Source: Candidatus Roizmanbacteria bacterium (GTDB taxonomy: Bacteria; Patescibacteriota; Microgenomatia; UBA1406; GWC2-37-13). From it: a DNA stretch of 64,000 nt. Numbering within the stretch: position 1 is the stretch's first letter; each line of letters starts with the position of its first letter. The position numbers and the translations under genes were made by a program. This document shows positions 42,901 through 53,169 of this stretch, one piece after another. The notes beneath the pieces were generated by a model. It was not told the origin of the DNA, ran no database searches, and saw only the letters and a list, made by a program, of their open reading frames with translations. Location: contig JACRPE010000005.1 of the NCBI GenBank assembly GCA_016214055.1, forward strand, positions 1-64,000, read 5' to 3'.

Positions 42901-43548
42901 ATGAAATACAAGACTCATCTTATCATCGCAGGATCACTCGTTTTCCTCTTCCTTTTTCTTTTCGGAGTATATAAATTAACCAACACGACTGTCGATTATA
43001 AGGATGTTATGACTCTTTCGGCATCCGATCATGTGAAATGGTCCCCTGATAAGAAACATGTACTGGTCGAGTATAGTGATCTTCAGTGTCCTGCATGTAA
43101 GGCATATCATGATATAATGAGTACTTTTGAGGCATCAGGAAGCCCTAATCTTGCAATTCCAAAGCAAATTACTTTGGTATTTCGCCATTTTCCCCTGTAT
43201 CAAATTCATGAAAATGCCCTTGAAATGGCCTATGGTGCAGAGGCGGCAAGCCGGCAGGGAAAGTTTTTTGAAATGGCAAATGTATTATTTTCAGACCAGG
43301 ACAACTTAGCAAAAACCAAAGATCCCAAAGGATTCCTTGCGGGAAAAGCAAAAGCAATCGGGCTGAATGTTGACCAATTTAAGAATGATGAGGAGTCGGC
43401 AAATGTAAAGAATAAAGTAAATGCGGATTTATCCGGTGGAGAGCGGGCGGGGATCAACGGCACACCCACTTTTTTCCTTGATGGGCAAAAGCTTGAGTTC
43501 CAATCACCACAGGAATTTGTAAAGATACTCCAAGCCGTTTTACAGTAA
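42901..43548 (+). CDS. DsbA-like thiol-disulfide oxidoreductase
   Basis: A 215-residue protein: an N-terminal membrane anchor (residues 7-24), then a thioredoxin fold with an inserted helical domain. The active site is C63-P-A-C66 (YSDLQCPACKAYH), and GTPTFFLDGQ supplies the cis-proline. It belongs to the BdbD/DsbA-like Thioredoxin_4 group and works outside the membrane, making or reshuffling disulfides. The cysteine-rich secreted proteins at 47.9-51 kb are likely substrates. A TAAAAT box lies 9 nt before the ATG. Confidence 0.92.
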   Translation: MKYKTHLIIAGSLVFLFLFLFGVYKLTNTTVDYKDVMTLSASDHVKWSPDKKHVLVEYSDLQCPACKAYHDIMSTFEASGSPNLAIPKQITLVFRHFPLYQIHENALEMAYGAEAASRQGKFFEMANVLFSDQDNLAKTKDPKGFLAGKAKAIGLNVDQFKNDEESANVKNKVNADLSGGERAGINGTPTFFLDGQKLEFQSPQEFVKILQAVLQ

Positions 43549-46827: not shown

Positions 46828-47885
46828 TAAAAGAAATAACATCACAATTTGAATGGACCTCCTTCTTCAACGAAGCAGGCTCTCCTTCCTTCCTCCATTC
46901 ATGGGAGTGGGGAGAGTTTCAAACCAAGCTTGGTTATGGCGTTTTACGTCTTGCTATCACTGATGATTCCGTCATTCCCGCGGAGGCGGGAATCCAATCT
47001 ATAAGTAACATCATTGCGATTTGTCAGGTAATCAAAATCAAAGCCAAACGGGGAAACATGCTCTTTATCCCGCACGGGCCAATTTTTGTCATTCCCGCGG
47101 AGGCGGGAATCCAGACTAAAAATATCATTGATGAATTGAAGAAATACTTGATTGATATCGCCAAACGTGAAGACTTTTCCTTTATCCGCATGGCTCCTAT
47201 CTTTCAAGACAGTAAAGAGCATCGTGAAACGTTTACCATCCTTGGATTTCGTACGGCACCCATCTACATGCACGCAGAACGTTTATGGGTCTTAGATATA
47301 TCAAAAGATGAGGATACGCTCCTTAAGGAGATGCGAAAGACTACCCGTTATTCCATCCGCAAGGCGGAGAAGGAAGGAGTTACCGTGGTTAAAAGAACGG
47401 ATGAAAAAGCACTCCGGGAATTCCAAGATCTTTATAACAGAACTGCCGCGCGGGAGAACTTCACTGCATATTCACCTTCATATCTGAAACATGAATATGA
47501 TGCATTTCATAGGACCGAGAATGCCAACTGGTTTTTTGCTTATGAAAAAGACGGGAAACTGACTGCCGCCGCCCTCATCGATTACACCAAATCAACCGCC
47601 TTTTACCATCAAGGAGCAACACTTCATAGTAAGGTTCCAACATCCTATCTCCTTCAATGGGAGTCAATCAAGGAGGCAAAAAGGCGCGGTTGTACCCACT
47701 ATAATTTCTGGGGAACACTCCAACCCGGCAGAACCCCGAAAAACTGGGGTGGTTTATCCCTTTTCAAAGAAGGCTTTGGAGGCTATCAAGTTGACTATGT
47801 ACCCACTCAAGACCTGATACTTTCACCTAAATATTGGATAACATACCTCTACGAACTCTACTTGAAGTGGAGAAGGGGAGTCTAA
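46824..47885 (+). CDS. FemX/FemAB-type peptidyltransferase with two inserted repeats
   Basis: A 353-residue protein. FLHSWEWGEFQTKLGYGVLR, NMLFIPHGPIF, LLKEMRKTTRYSIRKAEKEG and ATLHSKVPTSYLLQWESI, ending with NFWGTLQPGRTPKNWGGLSL split as HYNFWGTL and KNWGGLSLFKEGFGG, match Fem enzymes that add amino acids from aminoacyl-tRNA to the peptidoglycan stem peptide. VIPAEAGIQ occurs twice (near residues 51-59 and 90-98), each coded by a copy of the GTCATTCCCG repeat. Both fall in loops around the acceptor site. Last gene of the ATGA-linked cassette. Confidence 0.9.
   Translation: MIKEITSQFEWTSFFNEAGSPSFLHSWEWGEFQTKLGYGVLRLAITDDSVIPAEAGIQSISNIIAICQVIKIKAKRGNMLFIPHGPIFVIPAEAGIQTKNIIDELKKYLIDIAKREDFSFIRMAPIFQDSKEHRETFTILGFRTAPIYMHAERLWVLDISKDEDTLLKEMRKTTRYSIRKAEKEGVTVVKRTDEKALREFQDLYNRTAARENFTAYSPSYLKHEYDAFHRTENANWFFAYEKDGKLTAAALIDYTKSTAFYHQGATLHSKVPTSYLLQWESIKEAKRRGCTHYNFWGTLQPGRTPKNWGGLSLFKEGFGGYQVDYVPTQDLILSPKYWITYLYELYLKWRRGV
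46971..46997 (+). repeat. In-gene GTCATTCCCGCGGAGGCGGG repeat, copy 1
   Basis: Half-unit palindrome ATTCCCGC/GCGGGAAT, encoding VIPAEAGIQ in the femX-like gene. Confidence 0.85.
47088..47114 (+). repeat. In-gene GTCATTCCCGCGGAGGCGGG repeat, copy 2
   Basis: Nearly identical to copy 1 over 26 nt, same orientation and same reading frame (VIPAEAGIQ), 117 nt further on. Confidence 0.85.
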
Positions 47886-48790
47886 TTACTAGGGCATTCA
47901 GTAAGTCTTTTTGGTGTGTACAATATGGGATAAGTAATCCAGGTGTTTTCTGGATCACATCCGCATATTCGTACTACTCCGTTTGAGTCCTTTTCACACT
48001 TGTTGATATACCATCCCTCGACTCCGCAGTTATAGTCTCCAAATTTATTTATGTCACAATTTAATTGTTGAGGTTGAGCGGGTGCTTGAGTATCCACCGG
48101 TTGCGAGGGTGATGATGTAGTTGCTGGATTAGTTGGTGAGGCTGTAACAAGAATCTGCGGAGCATTCAGAGGGCAGTGAGTTTCGTCACTCATATTGTAA
48201 TTTGCAATGATATTGCCTGCGTTATCGGTTATACAACGGGTACCAACATTTAATCCATTACTCTTTATGCATTTATAGGTTGAATTAACAGGTGTTTGCG
48301 CTCCAAGAGTTTGAGTTAATGAATCTGAATAATAATAAGGACTTGATACGTCGGTCACTATTTGACTGTTATACATACATTCATATTCAGACAGTTGAGC
48401 TCTTGTTACAGCATTTGCACTTAAGCATTTTTCCATATCTATCGGCTCATTAATACATTTTGTATCTTTATTTATGTTTAATAGACAGTCTGTTGAATTA
48501 CAGCCTGGATACTTTGAGCAGAGTGCGGTTGCAGTAAAACACTTGGCTTTATTGCCTTTTTCCCCATTCCATATGGGTGCATTTTTGACACAATTTAAAT
48601 TGAAATAATTATTCACCCATCCTCCTTCTACTGAATATAGACCAACACTTTCGCAGAAAGAATTTGGTGCCGCTTTACTTCTGAATGAATTGACTTTATT
48701 CTGAGTAATTAGATTAACAATAAATGCTAATAAAAGGATTAAAACAATAAAGCCTGAGATTGTGACATTTTTTTTAGATACACAATACAT
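47882..48790 (-). CDS. Secreted cysteine-rich protein (shared Cys domain)
   Basis: A 302-residue protein: an N-terminal membrane helix (about residues 11-28), then a domain at 46-122 with eight cysteines (C46, C67, C84, C91, C97, C102, C112, C122). Its core IWNGEKG…AKCFTATALC…CNSTDCL…KCIN aligns with the neighbouring 697-residue protein with identical spacing between the last six cysteines. A Ser/Thr/Pro linker (212-242) and a second cysteine cluster (C245-C299) with ICGCDPENTW follow. No known family. Probably anchored outside the cell with disulfides made by the DsbA-like protein. It converges with the femX-like gene (4-nt overlap). Confidence 0.78.
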   Translation of the reverse strand: MYCVSKKNVTISGFIVLILLLAFIVNLITQNKVNSFRSKAAPNSFCESVGLYSVEGGWVNNYFNLNCVKNAPIWNGEKGNKAKCFTATALCSKYPGCNSTDCLLNINKDTKCINEPIDMEKCLSANAVTRAQLSEYECMYNSQIVTDVSSPYYYSDSLTQTLGAQTPVNSTYKCIKSNGLNVGTRCITDNAGNIIANYNMSDETHCPLNAPQILVTASPTNPATTSSPSQPVDTQAPAQPQQLNCDINKFGDYNCGVEGWYINKCEKDSNGVVRICGCDPENTWITYPILYTPKRLTECPSN

Positions 48791-48858
48791 ATATCATTGC
48801 TCCAATACTCATAACTCACCTATATTCATAGTACATGATTTGCTTGGGTGTGTCAAAC

Positions 48859-48884
48859 AAAACCCCCGCTTTCGCGGGGATTTT
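48859..48884 (-). terminator. Probable terminator of the 697-residue protein gene
   Basis: AAAACCCCCGC-TTTC-GCGGGGATTTT, a GC-rich stem flanked by A and T runs, 27 nt downstream of the gene end. The A/T flanks could let it act in both directions. Confidence 0.7.
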
Positions 48885-48910
48885 GAAAAATTAAAGGGAA
48901 AGTTTCTTCA

Positions 48911-51004
48911 CTACTTCTTTACAAAGAAAGGACATTTTGTATTACCTCCACTGAACGTATATCCTTGCTCTGTACACTGACAGTACTGGTCGTCAACCAT
49001 CGTTGAAGTGTCACACGCAACGTTAGTCAAGCTGTTGACATTTTTTGCGTAACAAGTTCTAAACTTTTTTAGGGATTTCTTGGTTGCCGGAACTCCAGAT
49101 GCGATTGTTGTTGAATATTCATAAGTCGCACCATCCCATACATAATTTTCTGTAGGAATACAAAATCCATAATTTTTTTTGGAAGCATCGGCAATGAAGC
49201 TTCTTGCCTTCGCAACTGTAGCGGCATCCGTATCAGCCACCAGTTTATTCATGCAGAATTTTTTTGTACTTTGAGTAAACATCTCTCCATTAGTAAGATA
49301 AAGTTTACCATCCCGCTCAAAATAATTTTCTACTCCACCAGGAGGACAGCTGAATCCTGCCTGTAAGACATCTTTTGGAGCGGTTGGTGGAACTGCACCC
49401 GTACACTTGGACAAATCCACTTCCTTGTTTATACAGGCAATCACATTGTCAATTCTTGTCAAACAATCGACCGTGTTACATGCACTACCTCTCTTGCACA
49501 TACCCGTAGCCGTATAACATCGTGCTTCTGAACCCCATTTACCATTCCATGCGGGCTGGTTTTCATACTGTTTACAATTACCTAAGCCAAGGGGATTTGT
49601 ACCGTCATAATAGGTCTGTGCCCATCCATCGGAGCCATCTAACGTAAGAGGTACTATTGCATTCTCTCCATCTTCCGGATCATTCGGAAAGTATGCTTTT
49701 TGTAAATCCTTACAGTACTTTTCATAAGATTGAGTCTGGGCTCCCTTATTTTTATCAGCGTCAGTTATGGTTTTGTCCAGAGCGTCATAAGAGCTACTTG
49801 TTGCTAATAAAGCTCCGTTAACTTTATCAACTCCGGTATTTATGTCAGCAATGACTACTGTACTTACCCCATAATCAGGACTGGGTAAAGCCAACTTTGA
49901 AAGCTGTCCAGGCAAAACAGACGTCTCGGAAAGTGAGCCTGAAAAAGTCTTAAGGGCTCCTTCAAATGCGGTCACTGAGTCGGTCATTTGCTTCACTACA
50001 CTCTCTTTGTTCTGCTCGTCAAGCAATTCAATAGCGACTTTATTCTCTTCTCCTATTGCATCAACTAGTTTTTGGGCGCTCTGGTCAAGACTTATTTTTA
50101 ATAAGTTGATAGTTGCGTTTGCCGCACTCAGTTCAGCTGGGGTAACTTCCCATGATTTGTAAGTTGCTTGAGCTGTAATTAACGCCTCCAAGCTGGGAGA
50201 AAATCTGAATTTCTCGGTATCACTAAATATTACCGCAGCTGAGACGTTTGACTCAAGATTTTTGAGTGATTCGATATACTTATCTGTATCCGTTATATCT
50301 TTTGCTGCTCTGAGACCTGTCAAGGTGTCATCGTTATTTGGATCAGACGAAGTATTATTGCTTAGTAATGCCGTGACTGCATTATCCATTATCTTCCTTT
50401 GACTATTTACAGCATTCTTTGCAGGTTCTGCATCAGCAAGTTTTTTATCTAATTCATCTTGTTTGTTTTTTAAATTTTTCGCGTCCTCATCTCTGTCATC
50501 CTGAGCTTGCTTTGTATTAGTCTTTGCCGTAGCTAAGAGGGCTTCTTTTGCTGAAACCTTAGTTGTAGCGGCTAATAAATCGCCTCCCAGTGCCGTCTTC
50601 TTAGCAGTAACTAAATCTCCGAGAGTTCCCAATTCCTTTTTTGTATCCGTTAATGCTTTTTCAGCTGACGAAACATTTGCAGTTATTGCACTTTTCGCAT
50701 CCTCAAGTTGTTTACTGTTTGAGAGTACTGCTGAAGTTCTAAGCATATTTGCTAAACTTTGAACAGTAGCAGAGGCTCTTGTTTTTAATTCTGAAAGTTT
50801 AAATAATGACATCGCGACCGTTGCACCTGGTGTTGGCGTACCCGCTCCTCCGAGCAATGCATTTGCCGGTTCATCGGCGCGGGACTTCGTGGAGAGGTTC
50901 TGATTGTTTACGTAATTCGTCGCCATCACGACTCCTATCAATATAACCAAGACCGCCGCTATGAACATCACGCTTTTATTGATGCATATTTTGTCATTTT
51001 TCAT
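48911..51004 (-). CDS. Large membrane-anchored coiled-coil protein with shared Cys domain
   Basis: A 697-residue protein. A membrane helix at about 12-29 is followed by a helical region of about 350 residues rich in Ala, Lys, Asp and Glu (DAKNLKNKQDELDKKLADAE), predicting coiled coils. The C-terminal 270 residues are cysteine-rich. Residues 431-534 form the shared domain (C477, C496, C503, C509, C514, C524, C534; PAWNGKWG, CYTATGMC, CNTVDCL, ACIN). The end has a CQC and CPFF. The architecture suggests a surface stalk with a disulfide-bonded head. The function is unknown. Confidence 0.78.
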   Translation of the reverse strand: MKNDKICINKSVMFIAAVLVILIGVVMATNYVNNQNLSTKSRADEPANALLGGAGTPTPGATVAMSLFKLSELKTRASATVQSLANMLRTSAVLSNSKQLEDAKSAITANVSSAEKALTDTKKELGTLGDLVTAKKTALGGDLLAATTKVSAKEALLATAKTNTKQAQDDRDEDAKNLKNKQDELDKKLADAEPAKNAVNSQRKIMDNAVTALLSNNTSSDPNNDDTLTGLRAAKDITDTDKYIESLKNLESNVSAAVIFSDTEKFRFSPSLEALITAQATYKSWEVTPAELSAANATINLLKISLDQSAQKLVDAIGEENKVAIELLDEQNKESVVKQMTDSVTAFEGALKTFSGSLSETSVLPGQLSKLALPSPDYGVSTVVIADINTGVDKVNGALLATSSSYDALDKTITDADKNKGAQTQSYEKYCKDLQKAYFPNDPEDGENAIVPLTLDGSDGWAQTYYDGTNPLGLGNCKQYENQPAWNGKWGSEARCYTATGMCKRGSACNTVDCLTRIDNVIACINKEVDLSKCTGAVPPTAPKDVLQAGFSCPPGGVENYFERDGKLYLTNGEMFTQSTKKFCMNKLVADTDAATVAKARSFIADASKKNYGFCIPTENYVWDGATYEYSTTIASGVPATKKSLKKFRTCYAKNVNSLTNVACDTSTMVDDQYCQCTEQGYTFSGGNTKCPFFVKK

Positions 51005-51100
51005 ATATGTGCAATAACTGTATATAAATAATAATGTACTATTACCTTCATTATGGAGAGTATAAAAGCGTTTGTCAAGGCCTTTTATATTTGAAGAAGA

Positions 51101-52234
51101 TTATACAGTTCCCCTTCGTTGCTTGATCGCCTTTACCATAAGTTGCAGGTAGGAGTCTATCATTTGCAAAGGCTTTCCCTCATCCAAATTTGCCTCTTCA
51201 CTATTGGCCATCGCCGCGTCGAAATATTTATTTAGCCCATCGCTCGCATATGATTTTGTGCATTGACCAAGATGTTTACTATCCAAATTAAACTCATACA
51301 TTATACTTTGGATTTTTAATCTTTCCTCATTTGATACTCCATTTTTTACCGCATTGGGGATTGCATATCTTTGATCTAAGATGACTCGTAATGCAGTAGT
51401 GTGAATCCTTCCTTTACTTGACTCCCCGAGAAAGCGGTTGTCATACTCAACTAATTGAAATGCCATTTGAGGCATATCGCTGACATATTCAATCGGCCAT
51501 TCAGTCGGAATAACATGCTTATCATCCCTGCCTGAGAATGGATATGTCATAACTTCTCCAACTTTACTCCCATCATTTGGTCCAAGACGAGATGCCTCAG
51601 AATGCATCGCCCCCATCATGTACAACGTCTGTATTTCTCTCACATTTGCTTCGATAGTATTTTTAACTCCTTCACTTTTTCCATCTGGTCCTGCAAGTTT
51701 TTCTTGGAGGGTTCTCAAAAGAGGTTCTGGAGATATCGACTCCAAAGACCTTCTCATATCTGTAAGCCATGATGGAATTCTGTTAGTAGCTAAATCATAC
51801 TCATCAGCTTTACTCAATTTAACTACTTCTCCTTTATCGTTATAGGTATGGCATAGTAACGGATCATAATGAGCAAATGGGGGAGTGAATGTAGCTCTTT
51901 TTCGGTACCTTCGGTCATATCCATATTGCGACCCTTCAGACTCCCATACGGTGATTACATATCCGTTCATAGGTGAAGGTTTTCCATCTGCGTCTTCAGC
52001 GAGGGGGTAGTGAGACAAAGTATAGTGAATCATAGGATTTGACTCTGATTGGATAAGCCCTGAATGAGTGATGTAAAGTCGCCTATCTTTAGTTGGAATG
52101 CAGTAGGGATGAAGGGGGAGTCCTTGATAATATTTTGCGCTTCGAATTACTTTTGCATCCATCGCCATAGAATCCCAAAGCCTTGTTCTTTCCGCTTTCG
52201 ATAATATAGGGGCAGAGATTTTTGATTCACTCAT
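51101..52234 (-). CDS. Unknown protein, 377 residues
   Basis: No family recognised. No signal peptide or membrane helix, so cytoplasmic. The composition is ordinary for a folded globular protein. Noticeable segments are THSGLIQSESNPMIHYTLSH, ITVWESEGSQYGYDRRYRKR, MMGAMHSEASRLGPNDGSK and a helical C-terminus (LQMIDSYLQLMVKAIKQRR). It lies 53 nt downstream of the putative metallopeptidase on the same strand and upstream of the cysteine-domain genes. Confidence 0.72.
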   Translation of the reverse strand: MSESKISAPILSKAERTRLWDSMAMDAKVIRSAKYYQGLPLHPYCIPTKDRRLYITHSGLIQSESNPMIHYTLSHYPLAEDADGKPSPMNGYVITVWESEGSQYGYDRRYRKRATFTPPFAHYDPLLCHTYNDKGEVVKLSKADEYDLATNRIPSWLTDMRRSLESISPEPLLRTLQEKLAGPDGKSEGVKNTIEANVREIQTLYMMGAMHSEASRLGPNDGSKVGEVMTYPFSGRDDKHVIPTEWPIEYVSDMPQMAFQLVEYDNRFLGESSKGRIHTTALRVILDQRYAIPNAVKNGVSNEERLKIQSIMYEFNLDSKHLGQCTKSYASDGLNKYFDAAMANSEEANLDEGKPLQMIDSYLQLMVKAIKQRRGTV

Positions 52235-52287
52235 AAGCCCTATAGTGTATATTATTTCTGGCTATTTGTCAAGAAAAAAATGCCAAT

Positions 52288-53169
52288 TCAATCGTGAAGT
52301 TTAGCATCTAGCAGTGCTTTTATTTGATTTCTATCAAATCCTCGAGCTATATCAACCCCCTTAGCTTTTGCAAAATCAAGAAAATGCATGGCAAAATTAC
52401 TTGCCGCCACTTCATCTCGGTAATTTGCAGGAAGAAAACCATTCACTAGAAAGTTCATATCGGTAAGTTGCAGATAATGTTTGAGTAAAAATAAAGGTTC
52501 GAGATATTTCATTTCCACTACATGAAATAGCTCATGAGCGGGGCAGACGAGAGATCCTTCAATGCCGTTTTGAATTTCATCAAACTCTGATTTTATAAGT
52601 TCTCCCGTGGTATAAAACAGTTTGGCTCTCTGATAATGTGGATCTTTATTTGGCACTAAAATATGTGGAATATCAGTTACGGCTCCTTTAAGTTTAGAGC
52701 CAGCTCCTTGCCACTTCTCACCCTTCATGTACCAATTAATACTTGGATCAATAGAAATCATATCAATGGCTTTTTCATTCTTTGTATCAACATACAAATA
52801 ATGAAGTATTTTATTCTGTTGTGGATCTCCCCATTTATTTTTCTCAACGCCATAAATAGCTAAGCATTCGTTACCATATCCCTCCATGATTACTCGCATA
52901 TTTTCTGTTTCTACCATTTTTGTTGGAGGTGCTTTACTCTTTGAAACGGATTCTAGCTCTGATTTAACCATAATAAAAATATCAGGAGGAAGAGATTGAT
53001 CGATGGGTTTGGCTTGAACATGAAGTAGTAATTCTTTGATTTTCTTCTCTCTAAGGGAACTGACGAGGCTTTCTATCCCCGGTGAGGGGGTTGGAAAAAT
53101 CTCACTAGGCAACACTCTACGTGAAAACTTTCTTTCAATTGTTCGTGGTAGTGAAAGTTTATCTGGCAT
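52288..53169 (-). CDS. Putative HExxH zinc metallopeptidase
   Basis: A 293-residue protein without signal peptide. VCPAHELFHVVEM contains H212-E-L-F-H216, the zinc-binding and catalytic motif of gluzincin-type peptidases. About 37 residues later RDEVAASNFAMHF offers E253 in an ExxA-like context, as third zinc ligand. The family is not recognised. It begins 5 nt after the ABC permease stop with a Shine-Dalgarno-like GGAGGGG that includes the permease's last codons, so it is the third gene of that operon. It may process a peptide exported by the transporter. Confidence 0.65.
   Translation of the reverse strand: MPDKLSLPRTIERKFSRRVLPSEIFPTPSPGIESLVSSLREKKIKELLLHVQAKPIDQSLPPDIFIMVKSELESVSKSKAPPTKMVETENMRVIMEGYGNECLAIYGVEKNKWGDPQQNKILHYLYVDTKNEKAIDMISIDPSINWYMKGEKWQGAGSKLKGAVTDIPHILVPNKDPHYQRAKLFYTTGELIKSEFDEIQNGIEGSLVCPAHELFHVVEMKYLEPLFLLKHYLQLTDMNFLVNGFLPANYRDEVAASNFAMHFLDFAKAKGVDIARGFDRNQIKALLDAKLHD

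Follow-up and report, generated by a model that had tools for sequence, protein, structure and literature searches.

A candidate lineage-specific export signal on hypervariable, cysteine-rich proteins of Candidatus Roizmanbacteria

Two adjacent genes in a 64,000-nucleotide stretch of DNA from Candidatus Roizmanbacteria bacterium (positions 1 to 64,000 of contig JACRPE010000005.1, assembly GCA_016214055.1; hereafter the window) encode exported cysteine-rich proteins, P0001 and P0002, which are best read as two members of a large, lineage-specific exported set in this lineage of the Candidate Phyla Radiation (CPR). The members share a tripartite N-terminal signal, in which a box K-x-C-[IFV]-[SDN]-K is followed by one membrane helix and by a hydrophilic stretch that ends in [STN]-[KR]-A at a near-fixed distance. 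It is proposed here, with a probability of about two in three, that this element is a lineage-specific export signal for hypervariable surface proteins locked by disulfides. A preliminary description of the window had singled out the two open reading frames (ORFs) as neighbouring secreted proteins with a novel cysteine domain. Both ORFs are present where it had placed them, on the minus strand (no strand had been given), and an undescribed cysteine module in an adjacent exported pair was borne out, while the wider N-terminal signal and a second module, termed here module B, had been missed.

47882..48790, minus strand: P0001, 302-residue exported cysteine-rich protein (signal, modules A and B, Pro/Ser/Thr linker, module C)
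48911..51004, minus strand: P0002, 697-residue exported protein (signal, long predicted helical stalk, module A, further cysteine region)
48671..48790, minus strand: N-terminal signal of P0001, residues 1-40 (box Y-C3-V-S-K-K, transmembrane helix, ...R-S-K-A40)
50876..51004, minus strand: N-terminal signal of P0002, residues 1-43 (box K-I-C7-I-N-K-S, transmembrane helix, S-R-A43)

The N-terminal signal and its carriers

The N-terminal membrane anchor previously assigned to both proteins corresponds to a hydrophobic helix that is indeed found in each, and this helix looks like a part of the shared signal rather than a generic anchor. When P0002 was searched against its own genome, all matches apart from module A in P0001 were obtained through its first ~60 residues, and a profile of P0002-type N-termini finds at least eight box proteins in that genome. 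Altogether, 47 box proteins were collected from 12 genomes (P0001, P0002 and at least 45 others), the counts per genome, which come from profile searches, being lower bounds. The box cysteine is present in all 47 by definition; position -2 is lysine in 32 of the 47, position -1 is I, F, L, Y or V in all that were scored, positions +1 and +2 are mostly I/F/V/L and S/D, respectively, and position +3 is lysine in 44 and arginine in two. This cysteine lies about 5 residues ahead of the helix and the tail [STN]-[KR]-A about 10 residues past it, where the tail would fit the small residues expected at -3 and -1 of a signal peptidase I site, and the distance from box cysteine to tail alanine is 35-37 residues in 40 of the 47 proteins.

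A model built from the genera g10 and g22 alone, with the window's own genus held out, recovered P0002 at an expectation value (E) of 3e-15, P0001 at 2.5e-4 and most other members of that genus below 1e-3, and the box was found in none of 45 other ORFs with an N-terminal transmembrane segment from the same loci. Across a set of 42 sequences the helix has diverged (mean column identity 36%), while the box cysteine, its lysine and the tail alanine are nearly invariant. Additionally, the P0002-type N-termini of two genera are orthologous over their whole 46 residues, helix included, with a mean column identity of 62%. Comparison of the 42 N-termini with Pfam and NCBIfam returned scattered weak matches of single members and no model that describes the signal, and no description of it was found in a literature search in which subscription papers were incompletely covered.

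The passengers of this signal are unrelated to one another, comprising trypsin (PF00089), gametolysin-like M11 peptidases, NHL and DUF5122 propellers, coiled coils and orphan cysteine-rich proteins. The window's own genome contributes a trypsin-like protease (L105), a long coiled-coil-like protein beside a small cysteine-rich protein (L104) and orphans, and its relatives contribute further trypsins, gametolysin-like M11 peptidases and NHL and DUF5122 propellers. Named records with a P0002-type signal are mostly Roizmanbacteria. In a class sample of 373 genomes, full-length matches bearing the box came mainly from the window's family, where they fell in genera g1 and g10, and the order search added g22. 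Outside this family the box was met in two sporadic cases, a cysteine-rich protein (L112) and a trypsin-like protein with an interrupted frame (L117), which belong to two other families of the class; the other class matches inspected had the helix and an [ST][KR]A tail only, a combination that seems to be more widespread among exported proteins of the class. In a phylum sample of 380 genomes, the window's own genome alone matched at E below 1e-5.

Some observations on individual carriers and on tails of this kind can be added. One signal-bearing cluster (L073, G070:C1:714000-725000) holds two tandem gametolysin-like M11 metalloproteases and an NHL-propeller protein, the signal of the second metalloprotease lying outside the stretch that was read; its proteins share the C-terminal cysteine-rich motifs CSWYGGCSMC and CEYFTSCGGC, which also occur in the trypsin-like L105 protein of the window's genome. 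The gene for a small box protein of 136-180 residues and that for signal peptidase I lie ~1.5-2.5 kb apart in three genomes of the genus (L106, L067, L081); in L106 the former is flanked by a rodA/ftsW-like gene on one side and by ribosomal L21/L27-like genes on the other. Many exported proteins of the class carry boxless tails such as QDTRSRA, QDVRQRAA and QTFRSKA ~10 residues after an N-terminal helix (L121, L122, L130).

Cysteine-rich ectodomains and their turnover

The ectodomains that follow the signal have 3.0% cysteine, against 0.67% in the ORFs of the window, and their cysteine count is even in 42 of the 44 proteins with at least two such residues (binomial p 5.6e-11, a value somewhat optimistic because the proteins are related). 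The set had been chosen by N-terminus and not by cysteine content, and 10 of 17 other cysteine-rich ORFs had even counts. The two exceptions are a protein with 25 cysteines and a short ORF (199 residues) that covers just the start of a trypsin domain. P0001 has 18 ectodomain cysteines and P0002 has 16, each with one box cysteine in addition; since the ectodomain counts are even, the box cysteine would stand outside the pairs. Judging from this parity, the ectodomain cysteines are very probably all paired in disulfides. A candidate catalyst is encoded in the window itself, and the same-genus genome G070 has its counterpart at the syntenic locus.

42901..43548, plus strand: DsbA/thioredoxin-like exported oxidoreductase with CPAC, candidate disulfide catalyst (PF13462, E 1e-16; PF01323, E 6e-14)

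A VKOR gene is found elsewhere, outside the window. In CPR bacteria, pilins have been proposed as clients of a disulfide system formed by an MdbA-like oxidoreductase and VKOR (PMC6744442). Genes of the same kind are present here, and the cysteine-rich box proteins make up a larger candidate client set than the pilins proposed in that work. As a separate observation, a 517-residue ORF (L143, 1480-3033) fuses a VKOR-like domain to what reads as a dihydroorotate dehydrogenase-like domain.

The cysteine-rich parts of P0001 and P0002 are built from small modules, of which module A is common to both proteins.

48416..48655, minus strand: module A of P0001, residues 46-125, eight cysteines
49394..49714, minus strand: module A of P0002, residues 431-537, eight cysteines
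48164..48379, minus strand: module B of P0001, residues 138-209, four cysteines, six-stranded beta fold predicted
47891..48058, minus strand: module C of P0001, residues 245-300, C-x10-C-x-C core, shared with a G070 protein in L078
49235..49348, minus strand: cysteine region after module A of P0002, residues 553-590, CPPGG...LYLTNG...FC, aligns with the module A protein of L148
48929..49054, minus strand: C-terminal cysteine region of P0002, residues 651-692, C-x10-C-x-C core as in P0001
49715..50824, minus strand: predicted helical stalk of P0002, residues 61-430, no cysteine (composition and heptad test, modest support)

The pattern C-x6-C-x5-C-x4-C-x9-C-x9-C, from which the module had been recognised, is exact in both proteins (P0001 cysteines 84, 91, 97, 102, 112 and 122; P0002 cysteines 496, 503, 509, 514, 524 and 534), and two further cysteines upstream (C46 and C67 in P0001, C431 and C477 in P0002) bring module A to eight. 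The two copies are homologous (BLASTP E = 4e-16; Smith-Waterman score 172 against a best of 53 in 1000 shuffles). That the module was undescribed agrees with profile and sequence comparisons against Pfam, NCBIfam, PHROGs and PDB sequences, none of which gave a match; its AlphaFold model is of low confidence (predicted local distance difference test, pLDDT, 37) and uninformative on the fold. Single-protein and profile searches of 72 family, 83 order and 373 class genomes gave no relative, and searches of viral contigs and genome contigs likewise gave nothing beyond the window pair. A weak match in G296 was judged to be chance, as it is a short frame with an inner stop that overlaps other genes.

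A third copy, which brings the number of proteins with module A to three, came to light only because it lies next to a gene with the signal. It lies in a 281-residue exported cysteine-rich protein on a 3.4-kb contig (L148; JAMWCT010000146.1, 1-3357), is related to the P0002 copy (Smith-Waterman 139 against at most 69 in 2000 shuffles; profile 24.5 bits; hhalign probability 92%) and keeps the C-x6-C-x5-C-x4-C core with a different end. The protein has no cysteine box of its own. As in the window, its gene comes after that of a box protein, and module A again stands beside a partner gene. The contig is binned as Omnitrophota and was probably mis-binned, because it carries Roizmanbacteria-type genes.

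Module B is better conserved than module A, with copies in relatives, two each in L079 and L078 of G070 and another in G023 (L007), and with a degenerate form repeated up to four times in G020 (L099). An AlphaFold model from twelve copies has six strands (pLDDT 86, predicted template modelling score 0.73). Its best Foldseek hit in the PDB had E 2.4, with probabilities of at most 0.08 and a highest listed TM-score of 0.38, in a type of search for which small beta folds are hard, and no viral fold matched. The CxC and CP motifs previously noted near both C-termini are present (C276xC278 and CP299 in P0001, which ends in ...RLTECPSN; C675xC677 and CP691 in P0002, which ends in ...CPFFVKK), but the C-terminal regions do not align above chance. 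Homology between them was rejected pairwise (score 22 against a shuffled mean of 25), the likeness being limited to C-x10-C-x-C. The stalk of about 350 residues earlier taken for a coiled coil is Cys-free and rich in A, L, K, S and T, but its heptad periodicity is modest (p 0.01-0.35 by sub-window), which leaves a coiled coil plausible and unproven. Its similarity to the coiled-coil protein C6 is borderline and may reflect low complexity.

Two conserved loci have retained the signal, whereas their ectodomains have largely been replaced. Between femX and yebC, where the window's genome encodes P0001 and P0002, G070 has only one protein, in which a P0002-like signal is joined to modules B and C of the P0001 type (L078); at the corresponding locus of G071, a homologous ABC permease is accompanied by two box proteins whose ectodomains are different. 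The N-termini of P0002 and of the G070 and G071 proteins align at scores of 120-147 (shuffles at most 45), their ectodomains align at chance, and the box proteins at both syntenic loci lack module A. The second locus, in other Roizmanbacteria, consists of a propeller/phosphatase-like gene, a box protein and a kinase gene. Between species, the first 46 residues of this box protein are 51-88% identical and the upstream neighbour is 46-76% identical, whereas most pairs of ectodomains are at chance and the rest are weakly similar. Two further proteins, L071 and L073, are recent duplicates that share their first ~110 residues and then diverge, and in another box protein (L153, 3968-4771) a ~65-residue cysteine module is repeated in tandem in nearly identical copies, likely a snapshot of ectodomain growth. 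The tandem repeats and the shared start of L071 and L073 suggest duplication and recombination as the source of the turnover.

The two genes of the window look separately transcribed, as each is preceded by its own promoter match and a GC-rich hairpin with a T tract (ccccgcgaaagcggggg ttttgttt) lies between them, after P0002 and directly before the P0001 promoter match. The hairpin was read from the sequence and is absent from the scan list, and the total number of sigma-70-like matches in the promoter scan was not above chance.

51050..51078, minus strand: sigma-70-like promoter match TTGACA-17-CATAAT, 11/12, upstream of P0002
48828..48856, minus strand: sigma-70-like promoter match TTGACA-17-TACTAT, 10/12, upstream of P0001

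Between P0002 and an ABC-2 transporter (51101-53169), the window has two ORFs of 377 and 293 residues without a Pfam match, both absent from the corresponding locus of G070; the shorter one has an HELFH motif and is a possible metallopeptidase.

Proposed mechanism and competing explanations

The sequences give good support to the shared signal and to the disulfides, with Sec routing, the cleavage site, localisation and role predicted from them. Under the export-signal reading, the cytosolic box would mark its preproteins among the Sec substrates, the helix would insert into the membrane, and signal peptidase I, which is encoded in 80 of 83 order genomes by a number of genes that shows no visible correlation with the box, would probably cut after [STN][KR]A. 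Small disulfide modules (A, B, C and others), coiled coils or proteases would make up the ectodomain, which would then be locked by disulfides from the DsbA-like enzyme and VKOR, and ectodomains would be exchanged or diverge very fast as the signal and the gene neighbourhood stay. The products, P0001 and P0002 presumably included, would be displayed or released, and would likely act at the surface or in secreted form on other cells or proteins, by contact or digestion. More tentatively, a dedicated sorting or processing factor may read the box and the spacing and route this hypervariable arsenal and the proteases to a specific cell site, for example that of host contact.

Several points weigh against this reading. 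The box of P0001 lacks the lysine at -2 and scores weakly, and no cognate receptor or co-occurring gene was found for the box. The [ST][KR]A tail also occurs without the box across the class, where it is possibly a class-wide processing site, so that the contribution of the box may be small. Signal peptidase I would have to work with an unusually long c-region, given the ~10 hydrophilic residues that separate the helix from [STN][KR]A, and the helix may thus remain as an anchor, or the cut may be made by another protease. Finally, all of the support consists of sequence evidence.

The alternative that has to be taken most seriously, although we regard it as unlikely, is a plain signal anchor inherited by common descent, in which one ancestral gene was often duplicated, its ectodomains diverged or recombined and the box had no special role. 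It would account for the orthology of P0002-type N-termini of two genera throughout their 46 residues and for recent duplicates such as L071 and L073. However, helices that diverge around a near-invariant cysteine, lysine and alanine at a near-fixed distance are not what it predicts, the trypsin, M11 and propeller folds cannot stem from one ectodomain, and two further families of the class have the box as well (L112, L117).

Two narrower explanations concern the cysteines themselves. If module A alone were the feature, the pair would reflect a species-level tandem duplication of an orphan cysteine module in two ordinary secreted proteins, as could be argued from the three carriers and the genome searches without a relative. 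This is very improbable, given that the third copy, on another contig, adjoins a box protein, that both window proteins bear the wider signal and that the syntenic box proteins of G070 and G071 do without the module. That the cysteine modules bind metal clusters or redox cofactors instead of forming disulfides is hardly credible: CxC motifs in cysteine-rich proteins would suit such a role, but the exported position, the absence of any Pfam metal-binding match and the presence of DsbA-like and VKOR genes oppose it, and even parity across unrelated ectodomains is predicted by disulfide pairing and not by metal sites. The export-signal reading is thus retained as the preferred one.

Relation to known signals and significance

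Short conserved N-terminal elements on otherwise unrelated proteins are familiar from other systems. Serine-rich repeat adhesins, which are large surface proteins, carry the KxYKxGKxW signal, a Lys-rich conserved box before a hydrophobic segment; the Roizmanbacteria box resembles it in being Lys-rich and ahead of such a segment and differs in motif and passengers. Lipobox and type IV prepilin signals likewise have conserved residues adjoining one hydrophobic helix at the N-terminus. In the lipobox, however, the cysteine follows directly after the hydrophobic region, whereas the box cysteine precedes the helix, on the predicted cytosolic side and not at a cleavage site; the present N-termini also lack the Gly before the helix and the Glu at +5 of type IV prepilins, and neither P0001 nor P0002 matched a pilin domain in Pfam or NCBIfam. 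Oomycete RxLR and Plasmodium PEXEL proteins provide a more distant likeness, since these fast-evolving, often disulfide-rich effectors share a common N-terminal targeting element ahead of hypervariable C-terminal parts, although the box proteins are bacterial and the motif is unrelated.

A close parallel is the YSIRK-G/S signal of Staphylococcus and Streptococcus, which defines a sub-class of Sec substrates by a short conserved signal-region motif on otherwise unrelated surface proteins. The YSIRK signal is removed by signal peptidase at an AXA-type site, and septal placement needs this cleavage (PMC11898559). The Roizmanbacteria signal differs in its motif, K-x-C-[IFV]-[SDN]-K, in a cleavage-like site that is farther from the helix at a near-fixed distance and in having been found so far in CPR only. 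The YSIRK-G/S model was absent from the NCBIfam families matched by the 42 N-termini and from the 25 Pfam families listed, at E up to 1, and the motif is absent from the N-termini by sequence. The genome encodes two sortases, and the C-termini of P0001 and P0002 have no LPXTG sorting signal. By analogy, the box and its near-fixed distance to the tail may perhaps add a third type of N-terminal signal for surface sorting to YSIRK and KxYKxGKxW, which would be the first one in CPR, a suggestion that we make with reserve.

The interactions of CPR cells with other cells are largely obscure because their exported proteins lack recognisable domains. A short, searchable signal on a heterogeneous, fast-evolving and disulfide-rich set that includes secreted proteases would make it possible to list candidate interaction proteins using genomes alone and would give proteomics in enrichment cultures a concrete target. 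Additionally, cysteine parity across unrelated ectodomains offers a simple genome-level test of disulfide pairing that could be used elsewhere. Such a shared tag may explain how bacteria this small equip their surface with proteins that change quickly.

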